From positions 2,542,001 through 2,606,000 of the forward strand of contig NZ_JAGIOK010000001.1 in assembly GCF_017876655.1 (NCBI RefSeq): DNA of 64,000 nt, read 5' to 3'. Shown piece after piece: positions 6,975-15,083 of the stretch; the stretch's first letter is position 1; each line of letters starts with the position of its first letter. A program made the position numbers and the translations under genes. The stretch comes from Microbacterium imperiale (GTDB lineage Bacteria; Actinomycetota; Actinomycetes; Actinomycetales; Microbacteriaceae). The notes under the pieces are model-generated. The model made no database searches and was not told the DNA's origin. It saw only the letters and a program-made list of their open reading frames with translations.

Positions 6975-8300
6975 TCAGAACGCGTCGAGGTCGGCGCGCA
7001 GGCCCCGGCCGGTGTACTCCGACCGCAGGATGCCGCGCCGGCGCAGCACCGGGACGAGCTCGTCGAGCGCGCGGTGCAGGGTCACGGGGTGCAGGTCGCC
7101 CGAGAAGATCAATCCGTCGTTGTCGGCGTCGTCGCCGAGCGCCTGGATGACGTCGGCGATCTCCTCGGCTGTGCCGACCGTTCCGCCGGCGCCGTCCGTC
7201 ACGCGGCCCAGCCGCGCCTTGCCGGCGAGGATGTCGCGCAGCGGTGCCTCCGAGAAGTCAGAGAAGCGACCGAGCAGCCCCCGGATGGTGCCCTTCGAGA
7301 CGTGATCGCCGAAGATCGCCGGATCGAGCGGACGGTCGAGGTGGAGCGACGTCAGATCGGTCTCGAGGTCGCTCGACCACGCCTCGGCGACCTCGCGCAG
7401 CGTGGCCTCGTCGGGATGACGCGAGGCCGCGACGAGGCGATCGGCCTCGTCCGTCGAGCTCGCGACGATCGGCTTGAAGACGAAGAAGGTCTTGATCGCG
7501 TCGGCGTCGCGTCCCGCCGCCAGCGCCGCCTCGCGCACGCGGGCGCGGTAGGCGCGGATGCTCGCGGGGTCGAGGTTCGACAGGGCGAGCTGGATCTCGG
7601 AGTTCGCGCCGGCGAACCCGATGCCACGGGGCGAGCCTCCCGGTGAGGCGACGACGGGGTCGCCGGCTGGCAGCGGCTCGGCGTTGAGCGGCCCATCGAA
7701 CGAGAAGTACTCGCCGCGATGCTGCACGGCGCGGATCTTGGAGCCGTCCGCGTAGATCTCCGTCTCACGGTCGGCGATGAGGGCGCCCTCGTCCCAGCTG
7801 TGCCAGAGCAGTCGCAGCGCGTTGAGCCATTCCTGCGCGCGGTCGTAGGCGGCGTCGTGACCGAGGCGCTCGGTGCCGAAGTGGTGCGCCGAGCCGACGT
7901 CGGTGACGACGTTCAACCCGAGCCGGCTGCCGCTGAGGTGCTGCAGCGACGCGAACTGGCGCGCGGCGAGGTACGGCGGCCAGGCGGCCGGATTCACCGT
8001 GGGGATGACGCCGAGGTGCTGCGTCGCCGCGAACAGATACGGGGCGAGCGTCCACGGGTCGTGCTTGGGACCGCCGTACGCCTTGCGCACGCGCAGGTTC
8101 AGCGTCTCGGGCGTGATGCCGATCGAGAGGGCGTCCTCGATCAGCACGAAGTCGAACCCCGCGCGCTCGAGCTCGCGGGCCGACTGCTGGTACAGGTCGG
8201 GCCGCTGCCACGCCCAGTCCCACCGCTGGTAGGGGCGCGCCCAGCCGTGCGGGCCGAACCCGCGCGAAAGGAACCATCCGAAGTGCTGCGCCCGCGTCAT
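6975..8300 (-). CDS. Luciferase-like flavin monooxygenase (NtaA/SnaA/DszA type)
   Basis: A 441-residue class C flavin monooxygenase. Family marks are the WAWQRPDLYQQSARELERAGFD opening (in two parts), LNVVTDVGSAHHFG followed by YDRAQEWLNALRLLW, and a late GTAEEIADVIQAL segment. Relatives use FMNH2 from a separate reductase to oxidise sulfur- or nitrogen-bearing organics such as dibenzothiophene sulfone, alkanesulfonates or NTA. The ATG at 8300 overlaps the stop of the upstream sulfhydrylase gene by 4 nt (ATGA), so the two are translationally coupled. A flavin reductase gene lies 2.4 kb away. An organosulfur substrate is inferred from this context. Confidence 0.85.
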   Translation of the reverse strand: MTRAQHFGWFLSRGFGPHGWARPYQRWDWAWQRPDLYQQSARELERAGFDFVLIEDALSIGITPETLNLRVRKAYGGPKHDPWTLAPYLFAATQHLGVIPTVNPAAWPPYLAARQFASLQHLSGSRLGLNVVTDVGSAHHFGTERLGHDAAYDRAQEWLNALRLLWHSWDEGALIADRETEIYADGSKIRAVQHRGEYFSFDGPLNAEPLPAGDPVVASPGGSPRGIGFAGANSEIQLALSNLDPASIRAYRARVREAALAAGRDADAIKTFFVFKPIVASSTDEADRLVAASRHPDEATLREVAEAWSSDLETDLTSLHLDRPLDPAIFGDHVSKGTIRGLLGRFSDFSEAPLRDILAGKARLGRVTDGAGGTVGTAEEIADVIQALGDDADNDGLIFSGDLHPVTLHRALDELVPVLRRRGILRSEYTGRGLRADLDAF

Positions 8301-9655
8301 GCCGGCACCGCCTCGAGCTGGCGAGTCGGCGCGGCCGGTGCGGCCGGCGCGGCCGTTGCGGCGGCGGCGAGGCCGCGCTGCAGGTCCGCGATGAGGTCCG
8401 CGGCGTCCTCCAGTCCGACCGACAGCCGCAGGAGCCCCGGGCCGATACCGATGCGCTCCAGCTCGTCGTCGGCGCGCTGGGCGTGGGTCGTGGACGCCGG
8501 ATGCAGCACGAGCGAGCGCACGTCCCCGAGGTGCGTCATGGGGGTGAACAGGCGCACGGCGTCGGTGAAGGCCGCGGCGGCGGCGCGCCCGCCGGCCAGG
8601 GTGAACGAGAACAGCGCACCCTGACCGCGGGGCAGCAAGCGGACGGCGACGTCGTGATCGGGGTGCGAGGGCAGACCGCTGTAATCCACGCCGACGACTT
8701 GGGGGCGGCCCTCGAGCCACGCAGCCAGCTGCGCCGCCGTCGCCGACTGGCGCTCGACGCGCAGCGACAGCGTCTCGATGCCCTGCAGCAGCAGGAAGGC
8801 GTTGAGGGGCGACGGCGCGGGACCGAAGCGCATCGCGACGCGACGGGCGGCGCTGAGGAAAGCCCGCTCACCGGAGCGCTCGACGAAGGTGCGCCCGTCG
8901 GCGCCGCGCTCGCCGGCGATCTGGCGGAACCGTCCGGGCACCGCATCCCAGGGGAAGCGCCCGCCGTCGACGACGACACCGCCGAGGGCCGTGCCGTGCC
9001 CAGCGAGGAACTTCGACGCCGAGTGCACGACGATGTCGGCCCCCAGCTCGAGCGGTCGCAGCAGGTACGGCGTCGCGAGCGTCGAGTCGACGATGAGGGG
9101 GATGCCGTGGCGGTGGGCGATCGCCGCGACGGCGGGCACATCGAGCACGCCGCCCCGCGGATTCGCGATGGACTCCGCGACGAGGGCCCGGGTGCGCGGT
9201 CCGATCGCCGCTTCCCAGGCGTCGGGATCGCGCGGGTCGGCCACGAAGTCCGTCGTGATGCCGAGACGGCCGAGGTCGGAGCGCAGGAGCTCGCGCGTGC
9301 CCTCGTAGATGCCCGACGCCGCGACGACGTGGTCGCCCGCCTCGAGGATCGTCAGCAGCGCCGTCGTGGTCGCGGCCTGGCCGCTGCCCACCAGCAGCGC
9401 GCCGACGCCGCCCTCGAGGTCGGCGATGCGGCGCTCCGCCGCGGCGGCGGTCGGGTTGCCGACGCGGGTGTAGCTGTAGCCGGTCTCGGGGTCGGCGAAG
9501 CGCGCCTCGCCGTCGCCGAGGTCGTCGAACTCGAAGCCCGCGGTCAGGTAGATGGGCGTCGCGCGGGCGCCGTGCGCGTCGAAGCCGCGGGCGCCGGCGT
9601 GCAGCTGACGCGTCGCGAAGGCGAGGGGCGCGTCGGGGGTCTCGGGTGCGGACAT
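8297..9655 (-). CDS. O-acetylhomoserine/O-acetylserine sulfhydrylase-family PLP enzyme
   Basis: A 452-residue member of the Cys/Met-metabolism PLP family. The motif HSASKFLAGHGTALGGVVV carries the PLP lysine, and YTRVGNPTAAAAERRIADLE and ESIANPRGGVLDVPAV are the conserved phosphate and cofactor blocks. The length fits MetY-type sulfhydrylases, longer than the 380-400 of MetB/MetC. The start at 9655 is preferred to an in-frame GTG at 9688 because the extra residues are unlike the family. The gene is upstream of and overlaps the flavin monooxygenase gene, suggesting direct reuse of released sulfide. It is a paralogue of the gene at 11362-12714. Confidence 0.85.
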   Translation of the reverse strand: MSAPETPDAPLAFATRQLHAGARGFDAHGARATPIYLTAGFEFDDLGDGEARFADPETGYSYTRVGNPTAAAAERRIADLEGGVGALLVGSGQAATTTALLTILEAGDHVVAASGIYEGTRELLRSDLGRLGITTDFVADPRDPDAWEAAIGPRTRALVAESIANPRGGVLDVPAVAAIAHRHGIPLIVDSTLATPYLLRPLELGADIVVHSASKFLAGHGTALGGVVVDGGRFPWDAVPGRFRQIAGERGADGRTFVERSGERAFLSAARRVAMRFGPAPSPLNAFLLLQGIETLSLRVERQSATAAQLAAWLEGRPQVVGVDYSGLPSHPDHDVAVRLLPRGQGALFSFTLAGGRAAAAAFTDAVRLFTPMTHLGDVRSLVLHPASTTHAQRADDELERIGIGPGLLRLSVGLEDAADLIADLQRGLAAAATAAPAAPAAPTRQLEAVPA

Positions 9656-9828
9656 GGCCGAAACTGTACGGCTCAAGCCGCGCGACACGGGGCGTCGTCG
9701 TCACGGAGGGTCACGCGGGCCGGGGCCCCGCGGCATCCGTGTGTCGTCGTGTGTCGTGATGTGTGCTCGCGTTTCCGCGTGTTTCGCCGGGGGAGGACGC
9801 CTGCGCGGGCGCTGATGACCATGGGAGC

Positions 9829-11361: not shown

Positions 11362-12714
11362 TCAACCGCCGACGCGGCGCGTCGCGGCATCCAGGCCCTG
11401 CGACAGATCGGCGATGAGGTCGGCGACCGTCTCGATGCCGATCGACAGGCGGATGAGGCCGTCGCCGATGCCGAGGCGCTCGCGTTCTTCGGCGGGGAAC
11501 GACACGTGCGTCGTGGTCGCGGGATGCAGCGCCATCGAGCGGACGTCGCCGATGTTGGTCATGCGGCTGAAGACCTGCAGGGCGTCGACGAACGCCTCGG
11601 CGGCGTCGCGGCCGCCCCGCACGGTGAAGGCGAAGACCGAGCCGGCGTGGCCGCCGAAGCGTGCCCGCGCGATGTCGTGGAACGGGTTGTCCGGCAAGCC
11701 GGCGAAGTCGACGCTCTCGACCGCCGGGTGCGCGTCCAGCCACTCCGCCACCGCCGCCGCGTTGGCGAGGTGGCGCTCCATGCGCAGCGACAGCGTCTCG
11801 ATGCCCTGCTGCAGCAGGAACGAGTTCATCGGAGACAGTGCGGCGCCGAGGTCGTTGACGATCCCGAACCGCAGGTACGCCTCGAGCGCGCGCTCGCCGT
11901 ACGCCTCGACGTACGACGGCTTGCCGCCCGCCCCCGGGTCGGTGAGCCCCGGGAACGCGCGCGACGAGCCCGCCCAGTCGAAGCGGCCGCCGTCGACGAT
12001 CGCGCCCGACAGTGCGGCGCCGTGACCGGAGAGGAACTTCGTCGACGAGTGGATGACGACGTCGGCGCCGAGCTCGAGCGGACGGATGAGGTACGGGGTC
12101 GCGACGGTGTTGTCGACGATCAACGGGATGCCGTGGCGTCGCGCGATCCGTCCGACGGCGACGACGTCGACGAGGTCGTTCTTCGGGTTCGGGATCGTCT
12201 CGATGAAGATGGCCTTCGTGTCGGGACCGATCGCCGCGTCCCACTCGGCCTCGTCGCGGGCATCGCGCACGTAGTCGCTCGAGACCCCCAGGCGCGCGAA
12301 GGTCCGGTCGAAGAGGATGCGCGTGCCGCTGTAGATGCTCGCGGTCGAGACGATGCGCTCGCCGGCCCCGGCGAGGCCGAGGAGCACCGCGGTGATGGCG
12401 GCCTGCCCCGAGCCGACGACGATGGCGCCGGCGCCGCCCTCGAGCGAGGCGATCCTCCGCTCGGCGACCTGGTGGGTCGGGTTGAGGTTGCGCGAGTACA
12501 GCTGTCCGTCGTCGGCTCCGGTGAAGCGCGCCTCGGCCTGCGCGAACGAATCGAAGCGGTAGGCCGCGGTGAGGTACACCGGCGTGATCCGGGCCCCGTG
12601 GCCCGGCTCGTCGATCTCGCCCGCGTGGACCTGGCGCGTGTCGAATCCGAACCCCTGCCAGTCGTAGCGCGGCGGCAGGATCTCGTGCGTCGGATCGTCG
12701 AGCGGCGGGGTCAC
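11362..12714 (-). CDS. metY: O-acetylhomoserine aminocarboxypropyltransferase (sulfhydrylase)
   Basis: A 450-residue MetY-type enzyme that would make homocysteine from O-acetylhomoserine and sulfide. The PLP-lysine segment reads IHSSTKFLSGHGAALSGAIV, with GFDTRQVHAGE near the start and YSRNLNPTHQVAERRIASLEG as the conserved N-terminal block. The GTG start at 12714 is exactly 6 nt after a TAGCCT hexamer (minus strand, 12726-12721), so translation is probably leaderless. It diverges from the cbs-like gene across a short regulatory region. With the paralogue at 8297-9655 the locus has two sulfhydrylases. Confidence 0.9.
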   Translation of the reverse strand: MTPPLDDPTHEILPPRYDWQGFGFDTRQVHAGEIDEPGHGARITPVYLTAAYRFDSFAQAEARFTGADDGQLYSRNLNPTHQVAERRIASLEGGAGAIVVGSGQAAITAVLLGLAGAGERIVSTASIYSGTRILFDRTFARLGVSSDYVRDARDEAEWDAAIGPDTKAIFIETIPNPKNDLVDVVAVGRIARRHGIPLIVDNTVATPYLIRPLELGADVVIHSSTKFLSGHGAALSGAIVDGGRFDWAGSSRAFPGLTDPGAGGKPSYVEAYGERALEAYLRFGIVNDLGAALSPMNSFLLQQGIETLSLRMERHLANAAAVAEWLDAHPAVESVDFAGLPDNPFHDIARARFGGHAGSVFAFTVRGGRDAAEAFVDALQVFSRMTNIGDVRSMALHPATTTHVSFPAEERERLGIGDGLIRLSIGIETVADLIADLSQGLDAATRRVGG

Positions 12715-12781
12715 TCCCTCAGGCTAGGGCGCTGCGGGGGTGGCATCCGATCGGGGCGTCACACGACGACAAACGCCGTGC

Positions 12782-12810
12782 TCGACACCCGCCGCCGCGT
12801 CGCTTAGGGT
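12782..12810 (+). promoter_or_regulatory. Promoter of the cysteine-leader / cbs-like operon
   Basis: TCGACA (12782-12787) matches the -35 consensus at five of six positions and is followed after 17 nt by TAGGGT (12805-12810). Seven nucleotides beyond the -10 lies the G of GTG at 12817, so transcription is predicted to begin on the first base of the leader ORF. Confidence 0.6.
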
Positions 12811-12816
12811 GGTCGC

Positions 12817-12843
12817 GTGCGAACCTGTCGCTGTTGCCGCTGA
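12817..12843 (+). CDS. Cysteine-rich leaderless leader peptide (VRTCRCCR)
   Basis: This eight-codon ORF encodes Val/Met-Arg-Thr-Cys-Arg-Cys-Cys-Arg, with three Cys codons (12826, 12832, 12835) followed by TGA at 12841. It starts where the promoter predicts the transcript to begin. It stands 78 nt upstream of the cbs-like gene, whose pathway makes cysteine. Leaderless short ORFs rich in Cys codons are known in mycobacteria as cysteine-responsive attenuators of downstream sulfur genes (recalled, not looked up). The same role is inferred here. The peptide itself is unlikely to have a function. Confidence 0.65.
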   Translation: MRTCRCCR

Positions 12844-12860
12844 GTGCCCGTCCCGGGCAC
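12844..12860 (+). promoter_or_regulatory. Hairpin directly after the cysteine leader ORF
   Basis: GTGCCCG (12844-12850) and CGGGCAC (12854-12860) form a perfect 7-bp stem with a 3-nt loop, starting on the base after the leader stop codon. A second pairing, CTGTCG (12825-12830, inside the Cys codons) with CGACAG (12875-12880), would enclose it. A third stem (CCGCGC 12883-12888 with GCGCGG 12897-12902) precedes the ribosome site TGAGGA (12909-12914). No T-run follows, so control would act on translation or Rho access, not on an intrinsic terminator. Confidence 0.5.
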
Positions 12861-12921
12861 CCCTCCGACGACCCCGACAGCACCGCGCCTCTGAGCGCGC
12901 GGACATCCTGAGGACACCCTC

Positions 12922-13932
12922 GTGCGTTACGCAGACAACATCGCCGAACTCGTCGGCAACACTCCGCTCGTCCGCCTGAACCGCGTGACCGGCGACATCG
13001 CCGCGACCGTGCTGGCGAAGATCGAATACTTCAATCCCGGCAGCTCCTCGAAGGATCGGATCGCGTCGCGCATCATCGACGCCGCCGAACGCGACGGCCT
13101 GCTGCGCGCCGGCGGCACGATCGTCGAGCCGACGAGCGGCAACACCGGTGTCGGGCTCGCCCTCGTCGCGCAGCAGCGCGGCTACCGCATGGTGTTCGTC
13201 GTGCCCGACAAGTTCGCCGGCGAGAAGGTCGCGGTGCTCAAGGCATACGGCGCCGAGATCGTCATGACGCCGACTAGCGTGCCCCCGGAGCACCCGGACT
13301 CGTACTACAGCGTCTCGGATCGCCTGGCGCGCGAGATCCCGGGCGCCTTCAAGCCGAACCAGTTCGACAACGCGAACGGTCCGCGCGCGCACTACGAGAC
13401 GACGGGCCCTGAGATCTGGCGCGACACCGACGGGCGGGTCACCCACTTCGTCGCGGGCGTCGGCACCGGCGGCACCATCACCGGCACCGGCCGGTACCTG
13501 CGCGAGGCTTCGGGCGGAGCGGTGACGATCGTCGGCGCCGACCCGGAGGGGTCGATCTACAGCGGCGACGTCGGCCCCTACCTCGTCGAGGGCGTCGGCG
13601 AGGACTTCTGGCCCGGGACCTTCGACCCCGCGGTCGTCGACCGCTACGAGCGCGTCGGCGACCGCGAGTCCTTCGCGATGGCGCGCCGACTCGCTCGCGA
13701 GGAGGGGCTGTTCGTCGGCGGATCGTCGGGCATGGCCGTCGTCGCGGCGCTGCGCACGGCTCGCGGGCTCGGCCCCGACGACGTCGTGGTGGTGCTGCTG
13801 CCCGATCACGGCCGCGGTTACCTGTCGAAGATCTTCGACGACGACTGGATGCGCGCCCGCGGCTTCGCCGACCTCCTGACCGATCCGTCCGCCACCGACC
13901 TGCCCGTCACCGACCCGAGGAACGACGCATGA
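12922..13932 (+). CDS. cbs: Cystathionine beta-synthase / cysteine synthase-type PLP enzyme
   Basis: A 336-residue fold-type II PLP enzyme that condenses serine (or O-acetylserine) with homocysteine or sulfide. PLP lysine is K44 in NPGSSSKDRIASR, the substrate loop is TSGNTG (residues 71-76) and the phosphate loop is GTGGTITGTG. The ending RGYLSKIFDDDWM is the CBS-type ending, yet the protein stops soon after it, so the C-terminal pair of CBS (Bateman) domains of full-length actinobacterial CBS (about 460 residues) is missing. GTG start at 12922 with TGAGGA 8 nt upstream. It overlaps the next gene by 4 nt. Confidence 0.85.
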   Translation: MRYADNIAELVGNTPLVRLNRVTGDIAATVLAKIEYFNPGSSSKDRIASRIIDAAERDGLLRAGGTIVEPTSGNTGVGLALVAQQRGYRMVFVVPDKFAGEKVAVLKAYGAEIVMTPTSVPPEHPDSYYSVSDRLAREIPGAFKPNQFDNANGPRAHYETTGPEIWRDTDGRVTHFVAGVGTGGTITGTGRYLREASGGAVTIVGADPEGSIYSGDVGPYLVEGVGEDFWPGTFDPAVVDRYERVGDRESFAMARRLAREEGLFVGGSSGMAVVAALRTARGLGPDDVVVVLLPDHGRGYLSKIFDDDWMRARGFADLLTDPSATDLPVTDPRNDA

Positions 13933-15083
13933 GCACCCACGATGCCGCCCACGGACTCGCGAGCCTCGCGGTCCACGCCGGCCAGCAGTTCGACCCCACG
14001 ACCGGCGCCGTCATCCCGCCCGTCCACTTCTCGACCACGTTCGCACAGGACGGCATCGGCGGTCTGCGCGGCGGCTACGAGTACGGCCGGTCGGGCAACC
14101 CGACGCGCACGGCCCTGCAGCAGCAGCTCGCGGCGCTCGAGGGTGGGGCCCACGGCTTCTCGTTCGCGTCCGGGCTCGCCGCCGAGGACGTGCTGCTGCG
14201 CGTAGCGCTGCAGCCGGGCGACGAGGTGCTGCTCGGCAACGACGTCTACGGCGGCACGCACCGGCTGATCGCCCGCGTGCTCGCCCCGTGGGGCATCGGG
14301 CTCCGCGTCGTCGACATGAGCGACCTCGACGCCGTGCGGGCAGCCGTGAACGAGCGCGCGCCCAAGGTGCTGTGGGTCGAGACCCCGTCGAACCCCCTGC
14401 TGCGCATCACCGACATCGCGGGCCTCGCCGCGATCGGTCACGAGGCGGGGTCGCTCGTCGTGGTCGACAACACCTTCGCCACGCCCGCCCTGCAGCGACC
14501 GCTCGCCCTCGGCGCCGACGTCGTCGTGCACTCGACGACGAAGTATCTCGGCGGGCACTCCGACGTCGTCGGCGGCGCGCTCATCCTCGACGACGACGCG
14601 CTGGCCGAGCAGATCGGGTTCCTGCAGTACGCCGCCGGCGCGGTCTCGGGTCCCATGGACGCGTGGCTCACGACGCGCGGCATCAAGACGCTCGACGTGC
14701 GGATGCAGCGCCACAGCGAGAACGCCGGGGCCATCGCGGCGTTCCTCGAGGGGCACGACCGCGTTGCCCGGGTGTACTACCCGGGTCTGGCCGCGCACCC
14801 GGGGCACGAGCTCGCCGCGCGGCAGATGACGCGCTTCGGCGGCATGCTCTCGCTCGCGCTGGAGTCGGGTGAGGCGGCCCGCCGCTTCGCCGAGTCGACC
14901 CACCTGTTCCAGCTCGCCGAGTCGCTGGGCGGCGTCGAGTCGCTCGTGAACTATCCCGACGCCATGACGCACGCGTCGGTCCGCGGCACCGAGGCCGCGG
15001 TGCCCGTCGAGGTCGTGCGGCTGTCGGTGGGCATCGAGGACGTCGACGACCTGCTCGCCGACGTCGAGCAGGCGCTGCGCTGA
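13929..15083 (+). CDS. Cystathionine gamma-synthase/gamma-lyase
   Basis: A 384-residue trans-sulfuration PLP enzyme. The active lysine is K205 in HSTTKYLGGHSDVVGG, with YGRSGNPTRTALQQQLAALEGG and VETPSNPLLRITDI as other family blocks. Synthase (MetB) and lyase (CGL) activities cannot be separated by eye. Its coupling to the cbs-like gene through an ATGA overlap favours the cystathionine-to-cysteine direction (gamma-lyase), making cysteine from homocysteine. Both genes lie behind the cysteine-rich leader and would be controlled together. Confidence 0.9.
   Translation: MSTHDAAHGLASLAVHAGQQFDPTTGAVIPPVHFSTTFAQDGIGGLRGGYEYGRSGNPTRTALQQQLAALEGGAHGFSFASGLAAEDVLLRVALQPGDEVLLGNDVYGGTHRLIARVLAPWGIGLRVVDMSDLDAVRAAVNERAPKVLWVETPSNPLLRITDIAGLAAIGHEAGSLVVVDNTFATPALQRPLALGADVVVHSTTKYLGGHSDVVGGALILDDDALAEQIGFLQYAAGAVSGPMDAWLTTRGIKTLDVRMQRHSENAGAIAAFLEGHDRVARVYYPGLAAHPGHELAARQMTRFGGMLSLALESGEAARRFAESTHLFQLAESLGGVESLVNYPDAMTHASVRGTEAAVPVEVVRLSVGIEDVDDLLADVEQALR

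Follow-up and report, generated by a model that had tools for sequence, protein, structure and literature searches.

Attenuators of the trp type combine a leader ORF carrying codons for the pathway product with competing RNA pairings and intrinsic terminators, and tnaC of E. coli exemplifies Rho-dependent attenuation with a ribosome stalled next to the stop codon of a short ORF that is followed by a C-rich, G-poor stretch. For cysteine, leader peptides with Cys runs were predicted ahead of the cys operons of Mycobacterium and P. acnes as well as ahead of cbs of Bifidobacterium longum (Seliverstov et al. 2005, PMC1262725), and the section of that paper on these leaders reports no conserved terminator hairpins in Mycobacterium and suggests an involvement of Rho. 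As far as the accessible parts of the sources go, mycobacteria have conserved Cys-rich leaderless ORFs and, in M. smegmatis, ribosomes occupy the cysA2 locus (PMC4633059); in addition, mycobacterial polycysteine leaderless short ORFs have been studied in experiments with M. smegmatis (Canestrari et al. 2020, Mol Microbiol 114:93, as cited in PMC9094748, PMC13236596, and PMC9031893). Six such ORFs are predicted in M. tuberculosis in the available part of PMC9094748, and that of PMC13236596 describes translation attenuation as a stalled ribosome unmasking the downstream ribosome-binding site (RBS).

The locus studied here lies in a window of 64,000 nt (the whole stretch of DNA that was analysed) in the 3,167,543-base genome of Microbacterium imperiale (G000), where a mini-ORF with three Cys codons heads a cysteine-metabolism operon of cbs and an overlapping gene for a cystathionine gamma-synthase/lyase. 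We consider it likely that this mini-ORF is a Cys-tRNA-sensing attenuator of the cbs operon, since a 5'-terminal ORF that has Cys codons close to its stop and leads into the gene for a cysteine-making enzyme points to a ribosome that senses Cys-tRNA. The original prediction had proposed a candidate cysteine attenuator, and this is still the best reading of a locus whose Cys codons and stop-codon hairpin are kept in relatives.

A cysteine-rich mini-ORF with promoter-like elements ahead of cbs

The mini-ORF, its promoter-like elements, and the genes that it precedes are arranged as follows:

12782..12787, + strand: -35-like hexamer TCGACA, read in the sequence, with a 17-nt spacer to TAGGGT
12805..12810, + strand: -10 element TAGGGT, 6 nt ahead of the mini-ORF GTG at 12817
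12817..12843, + strand: leaderless-type mini-ORF V-R-T-C-R-C-C-R-stop with Cys codons at 12826-12828, 12832-12834, and 12835-12837
12910..12914, + strand: Shine-Dalgarno GAGGA of cbs, read in the sequence
12922..13932, + strand: cbs, encoding a 336-aa protein of the cystathionine beta-synthase type that lacks CBS domains (PF00291 only)
13929..15083, + strand: cystathionine gamma-synthase/gamma-lyase type gene (PF01053; NF005871 629.6 bits, cut-off 513)

The codons of the mini-ORF read GTG-CGA-ACC-TGT-CGC-TGT-TGC-CGC-TGA (12817-12843), and 78 nt separate its stop from the GTG of cbs at 12922. All elements that had been noted at this locus, i.e., TCGACA-N17-TAGGGT, the GTG at 12817, the eight-codon ORF, and a cbs-like gene 78 nt downstream, are found there upon reading the sequence, and the TANNNT spacing is conserved in relatives. 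A sigma-70 consensus scan of 12600-13100 returned no promoter and also missed TCGACA, and TAGGGT agrees with TATAAT at three of six positions, so the promoter assignment rests on the conserved TANNNT at a fixed distance. Among 102 distinct Microbacterium leaders (from the named loci, the genus loci, and the window, with five later-added genomes outside the set), which had been picked by clustered Cys codons plus either TANNNT or the peptide TCRCCR, TANNNT precedes the mini-ORF start by 6 nt (81 leaders) or 7 nt (19 leaders) in 100, and two are without it. Further upstream, agreement with TTGACA, measured with spacers of 16-18 nt, averages 3.04 of 6 positions vs 2.01 at control spacers across 25 leader clusters and is above the control in 20 of these 25 (p = 4e-4). 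As a sequence proxy, this TANNNT spacing would fit a mini-ORF start at the 5' end of the transcript.

The mini-ORF is real and far above chance. When both strands of the window and of 80 loci were counted (611,814 bases), TANNNT was found 6 or 7 nt before the ATG or GTG of 75 ORFs no longer than 20 codons; 63 of them contain at least three Cys codons and seven contain two, and every one of the 63 is a cbs leader, which bears out the earlier statement that three Cys in eight codons exceed chance expectation. The window alone has two such short leaderless-type ORFs, and the cbs mini-ORF is the sole one with at least two Cys.

The downstream genes make cysteine synthesis by transsulfuration the likely target (PF00291, PF01053, and NCBIfam matches), which speaks for a cysteine sensor. 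The cbs product matches TIGR01137 (cystathionine beta-synthase) best among NCBIfam models with 493.7 bits, under the cut-off of 510.25, and covers positions 2-322 of 457, leaving the C-terminal 323-457 unmatched. The start of the cystathionine gamma-synthase/lyase gene overlaps the cbs stop by 4 nt, and the two genes are predicted to form the same operon. An SD-like core (AGGA, GGAC, or similar) lies 6-11 nt before the cbs start in all 102 distinct leaders. The PAPS/APS reductase family (PF01507) was not found in the whole genome of M. imperiale, so sulfate reduction by the PAPS/APS route seems absent, and the transsulfuration operon may be a main internal cysteine source of this organism. Two O-acetylhomoserine sulfhydrylase-like genes lie near the operon (8297-9688 and 11362-12714, both on the - strand), of which the latter diverges from it.

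Distribution and variation of the leader

The mini-ORF is present in 71 of 80 named cbs loci and absent from nine (titled Schumannella, Herbiconiux, Mycetocola (three loci), Amnibacterium, Plantactinospora, Terrabacter, and an actinomycete MAG). By reading of the match list, 75 of 99 genus genomes, the window's own included, have a cbs ortholog, and the other 24 show matches only at the level of CysK-type paralogues. All 75 upstream regions were read, and 56 contain a version of the mini-ORF. The original prediction had made its case depend on conservation of the Cys codons in relatives, and these counts, together with variants across the family, support it; since at least two Cys codons were a selection rule for the conserved-ORF sets, conservation shows in the number of loci compared with the background rate. 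Several Cys codons in a very short ORF are thus conserved in the genus. The 19 cbs-bearing genus genomes without the mini-ORF comprise 18 with a longer Cbs (454-488 aa; the CBS domain was verified by Pfam in the two that were scanned) and one (G030) in which cbs is cut at its 3' side by the contig end. In all 19, TANNNT sits 6 or 7 nt before the start codon of cbs itself, so that cbs looks leaderless in these genomes.

The 102 distinct leaders start with GTG in 101 cases and end with TGA in 100. Their commonest peptides are VLTCRCCR (35), VLTCRCCRPCC (12), VSLTCRCCR (9), and VQTCRCCR (7), with variable N-terminal residues and a nearly constant C-R-C-C-R part, and there are variants with two Cys (VLTLRCCRR, VLTCRCRR, and VALTCRCPR). 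The leader Cys codons are mostly TGT, contrary to the habit of the genome: 292 TGT and 4 TGC in the core of the leaders vs 11 TGT and 69 TGC in 37 well-coding ORFs of the window and 3 TGT and 43 TGC in cbs genes. We count this TGT bias in favor of the sensor. The extension of one clade (PCC and similar) has no such bias (11 TGT, 18 TGC), which speaks against it.

This variation bears on the idea that the peptide acts by its sequence, as an arrest peptide of the C-C-R-stop type answering a ligand, and not by Cys codon supply. An Arg does follow the Cys cluster in most leaders, but in some it gives way to Leu (VALTCRCCL) or Glu (VTLTCRCCE), there is free variation in length and in the N-terminal residues, and the arrangement of the Cys is variable too. 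Moreover, eight residues fall short of filling the exit tunnel. We therefore regard an arrest peptide as very improbable and favor sensing of Cys-tRNA by the codons.

Across 101 measured leader loci, Cbs is 316-404 aa long or part of a fused product of 742-771 aa, with a single exception (G085), whereas loci without the leader (18 genus genomes and the nine named loci) encode a Cbs of 453-488 aa. The exception combines the leader with a 460-aa Cbs and a remnant CBS domain scoring 20.3 bits vs a cut-off of 24. In a midpoint-rooted tree of 66 Cbs proteins chosen from those retrieved, which does not include the proteins behind the 17 leaders of other genera described below, a branch with support 100/90 sets the leader-bearing proteins apart, G085 adjoins the long-Cbs side, and the association of short Cbs and leader amounts to one change. 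One genus thus holds two kinds of Cbs, a short one with the leader and one of 454-488 aa without it and with an apparently leaderless cbs, with G085 as an intermediate. A causal tie between the leader and the loss of the regulatory (CBS) domain was considered and rejected: it would be a single change on the tree, and the leader is not tied to this loss because all 17 family leaders in other genera precede cbs open frames of at least 461 aa. A tie to a lack of sulfate assimilation was likewise dropped, as there is no association across 80 genus genomes: the PAPS/APS reductase family occurs in 32 of them, i.e., in 24 of 56 that bear the leader (23 strong matches and a weak one in G013), five of 18 with a long Cbs, and three of six without cbs.

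Beyond Microbacterium, cbs was detected at E <= 1e-90 in 68 of 90 family genomes (about one per genus), and 340 nt were scanned in each of the 67 besides the window's own. In 17 of these 67, we found an ORF of the leaderless type, 8-12 codons long and preceded by TANNNT at 5-8 nt, in which Cys codons lie close to the stop, compared with one such ORF under the same rules in 229,638 nt of other sequence; different Cys-rich mini-ORFs at the same place argue for a sensor. Their peptides (e.g., VFALNLCCCR, VPVYSSCCCCR, VSTVKSCCCCR, MFAGFRCCRR, VNISRSCCRR, and MRCIRCCR) have little in common beyond a leaderless start, a Cys cluster, and a stop, and their Cys codons are again mostly TGT (37 TGT, 6 TGC). 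In another 24 of the 67 genomes, it is the start codon of cbs that TANNNT precedes by 5-8 nt; no genome has both features, and 26 have neither by the rules of the scan (G142 was re-read), one of which carries VITRLCCCCR without a clear -10. It counts against the sensor that a Cys mini-ORF is absent, by the rules used, in 19 of 75 genus genomes and in a total of 50 of the 67 other family genomes. A survey of the class added one case of 14 codons (VLLTCCCCRRSDRP, in G239).

An RNA model built from 37 leaders (R1) and run on 299 family genomes matched below E 1e-4 in three Microbacterium genomes and in one genome of another genus (G197), where the same leader lies ahead of a short cbs, and in no others. 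At E <= 0.01 it matched 16 of the 299 genomes; of the 12 weaker matches, the one examined (G256, 6.7e-4) has no such ORF. The pattern TGYCGNTGYTGYCG was not clearly commoner than its control (23 vs 18), and CTGTCGNTGTTGYCG matched 82 of 299 family genomes, with only one leader (L175, in G197) among 30 loci examined. Additional leader copies in the genome of M. imperiale, where R1 finds one, or before other genes of the family were set aside, as R1 (below E 1e-4) and the 30 loci examined for CTGTCGNTGTTGYCG yielded only the G197 leader outside Microbacterium. No Cys-rich leaderless mini-ORF was seen upstream of the sulfite-reductase operons of six relatives, another point against the sensor. 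Outside the family, 24 cbs loci (of 155 class genomes with cbs) were scanned for leaderless ORFs, 22 for at least two Cys and the other two for at least three, and none with clustered Cys was found; TANNNT precedes the cbs start in ten of the 22. Differently shaped Cys leaders led by an SD may occur there.

Several observations were made along the way. In three strains, Microbacterium sp. 8M (L062, 3001-5238), M. azadirachtae DSM 23848 (L066), and Microbacterium sp. USTB-Y (L069), cbs and the downstream cystathionine enzyme are joined in one frame of 742-771 aa with the leader retained, and Pfam verified both domains in the one scanned (L062). Four genomes (G137, G150, G152, and G153) encode a second, more distant Cbs/CysK-like protein (49-52% identity) beside cbs. 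A contig titled Planococcus sp. APC 4015 (JASDDH010000003.1, L055) carries a typical Microbacterium cbs with the leader and is probably a mislabelled or contaminated assembly.

Leader RNA structure and candidate output steps

From the Cys codons to the cbs start, the following elements can be distinguished:

12825..12839, + strand: 5' arm of P2, formed by the Cys and Arg codons, CUGUCG-CU-GUUGCCG (complementarity and fold)
12844..12860, + strand: hairpin P1 at the mini-ORF stop codon, 7 bp with a loop of 3 (fold; its arms covary)
12844..12921, + strand: untranslated part of the leader, rich in C (0.47) and poor in G (0.27), a possible Rho-loading region by base composition
12866..12880, + strand: 3' arm of P2, CGACGAC-CC-CGACAG, a noncoding block that is conserved and complements the Cys codons
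12883..12902, + strand: G+C-rich hairpin P3 before the cbs Shine-Dalgarno (fold; similar hairpins seen by inspection in relatives)

The minimum-energy fold of 12817-12921 (-41.6 kcal/mol, z -2.56, one of 200 shuffles as stable) has the Cys and Arg codons paired with the block CGACGACCCCGACAG in P2, which encloses P1, and P3 as a separate hairpin. It includes both pairings that had been predicted, the 7-bp hairpin directly 3' of the stop (12844-12860) and CTGTCG (12825-12830) with CGACAG (12875-12880). In 27 of 27 clusters, leaders are more stable than their shuffles (mean z -3.5, up to four leaders per cluster), and the Cys codons pair with the downstream part more than in shuffles in 25 of 27 (p = 1.4e-7).

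How far these pairings are kept in relatives differs between the two. The stop-codon hairpin P1 covaries: it shifts along with the stop codon where the ORF is longer, its own arms beat arms swapped between clusters in 20 of 27 (p = 0.002), and arms are altered on both sides (GAGCGC/GCGCTC, GAACGC/GCGTTC, GAGTGC/GCACTC, and GAGAGC/GCTCTC), with 69 of 102 leaders scoring at least 4 of 6 in a fixed 6-nt test. For P2, by contrast, it is complementarity and not covariation which suggests that the Cys codons pair with the block downstream. Its 5' arm is nearly invariant, and 80.8% of cells in the alignment pair vs 19.5-46.6% when slid, but no covariation above shuffles was seen in alignment A1 (MAFFT, 37 of 43 non-redundant leaders, 3' ends clipped, six left out), own arms beat swapped arms in 15 of 27 clusters (p = 0.23), and consensus folding of A1 gave five pairs with no compensatory change. 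The 17 family leaders are more mildly stable (z -1.57, negative in 15 of 17), and their pairing of Cys codons with the downstream part is not significant (10 of 17, p = 0.12). GACAACA in the cbs start was also considered as a partner of the Cys codons but discarded because only one of 102 leader-bearing cbs starts has it, and Rfam covariance models gave no match on 12700-13000 up to E 1.

A strong fold in all clusters could also mean that the conserved element is a structured 5' leader serving stability or insulation, in which the Cys reading is incidental, and the RBS being kept open would fit this. The leaders of other genera, however, share mainly a leaderless start, the Cys cluster, and the stop, and the target enzyme makes cysteine, so that we consider a merely structural leader improbable compared with the Cys-tRNA sensor.

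If the leader is such a sensor, its output could be translational, with a resting fold that hides the cbs Shine-Dalgarno and a stalled ribosome that opens it, as described for M. smegmatis in the accessible sources; such unmasking is what PMC13236596, which cites the mycobacterial case, gives as the mechanism of translation attenuation. This is a serious candidate that we would rate slightly below an even chance. Pairing between the first codons (CCUGA and variants) and the SD region (UCAGG) is possible in many relatives, and own pairs are slightly above swapped ones (18 of 27 clusters, p = 0.037; by duplex energy 16 of 27, p = 0.039), but these helices are mostly 4-5 bp (4 bp in the window) and the comparison with shuffled leaders gave no support. 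When the partition function was computed in four ribosome positions and compared with shuffled leaders, a ribosome on the last Cys codon increased RBS accessibility by 0.059 vs 0.082 in shuffled leaders, and the resting RBS was more open than in shuffled leaders (0.531 vs 0.476). The check that had been put forward, folding with and without a stalled ribosome, thus shows no greater opening of the cbs RBS than shuffled leaders do and lends no support to unmasking as a general mechanism.

Alternatively, the same sensor could have a transcriptional output, in which the C-rich leader would be a Rho-loading site and a stalled ribosome would hinder Rho so that RNA polymerase reaches cbs. The segment from the stop to cbs has a mean C/G ratio of 1.98, compared with 1.02 for the 120 nt upstream of the promoter (p = 1.5e-8), with C above G in 27 of 27 clusters, and a cruder measure gives 1.73 for 52 cbs genes with the leader vs 1.10 upstream of 187 other predicted genes. 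No intrinsic terminator was found in 12600-13100, at most a few codons separate the Cys codons from the stop, RBS unmasking is unsupported by folding, and Rho had been suggested for Cys leaders in the relevant section of PMC1262725. On the other hand, this C-rich, G-poor stretch is strongly folded in the same clusters, about 70 nt would be uncovered either way, and stalling at the Cys codons would disrupt P2 as well, leaving the C-rich block exposed, which would argue for an effect of opposite sign. Given the C-rich leader, the lack of an intrinsic terminator in the region scanned, and the Cys codons close to the stop, the Rho-dependent version seems as likely as the translational one, and we see the output of the sensor as split about evenly between them.

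Proposed mechanism and comparison with known systems

We propose that transcription of the cbs operon would begin on the G of the mini-ORF GTG, so that a ribosome could initiate at once on the eight-codon leaderless ORF, whose Cys codons would measure charged Cys-tRNA. With enough cysteine, the ribosome would reach the stop and leave, P2 would form around P1 between the Cys codons and the block downstream, and both cbs and the gene after it would be expressed at a low level. With little cysteine, it would stall on the Cys codons just before the stop, preventing the resting fold of the leader and perhaps covering the beginning of the C-rich segment, and the output of Cbs and the cystathionine enzyme would rise; the last step would act on cbs translation or on Rho-dependent termination. 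The mini-ORF with its promoter spacing, its conserved and mostly TGT Cys codons, the hairpin, the complementary block, and the C-rich leader are observed features, and translation of the mini-ORF, stalling, and the direction of control are inferred.

A more specific version is that many cbs genes of the Microbacteriaceae have two mutually exclusive starts, either a leaderless cbs or a leaderless Cys mini-ORF before a leadered cbs, with the mini-ORF working by Rho-dependent transcription attenuation on a conserved fold that pairs the Cys codons with a downstream C-rich block. We hold this version only tentatively and on balance find it doubtful; if true, its Rho-dependent output would differ from the translational output described in mycobacteria.

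With this leader, cysteine attenuation through leaderless ORFs would reach beyond mycobacteria into a large actinobacterial family of soils and plants, where transsulfuration (cbs) is the target. About a hundred natural variants of one leader and 17 dissimilar ones in other genera form a resource for direct tests of how stalling on a leaderless ORF of eight codons is converted into an output, and ORFs far below annotation limits can evidently be found via promoter spacing and codon content. The original prediction knew of no description of such a target in a Microbacteriaceae-like genome, and we found no description of such a leader in Microbacterium or its family in the open literature (subscription journals being mostly outside the search). 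As a target, cbs is not wholly new because the available text of PMC1262725 predicted the B. longum leader peptide in 2005.

Compared with the mycobacterial polycysteine ORFs, as far as their published descriptions are accessible, the leader shares the putative leaderless start, Cys codons in a short ORF, the first position in a cysteine-metabolism operon, and conservation. It differs in its 8-12 codons with Cys mixed with Arg (C-R-C-C-R), in its target of cbs plus a cystathionine enzyme, in the single copy found by R1 in this genome vs six predicted in M. tuberculosis (PMC9094748), and in RBS unmasking being unsupported by folding. Like the leader peptides of PMC1262725, it has Cys codons near the stop, cbs as a target, and a proposed role of Rho; the section on Cys leaders in that paper does not raise leaderless initiation, and the Mycobacterium leaders described there differ from ours, which have a covarying stop-codon hairpin and a conserved complementary block. 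With trp-type attenuators it has in common the codons of the pathway product in a leader ORF and potentially competing RNA pairings, but it has no U-run terminator (in 12600-13100) and appears to start leaderless. Similar to tnaC, a short ORF is directly followed by a C-rich, G-poor stretch and the proposed stall adjoins the stop; unlike there, the proposed cue is Cys-tRNA supply and not a free ligand, and a role of Rho is suggested here from sequence. Taken together, the cbs mini-ORF is probably a cysteine sensor of the kind already known from mycobacteria, with a fold of its own and dissimilar sister leaders across the family.
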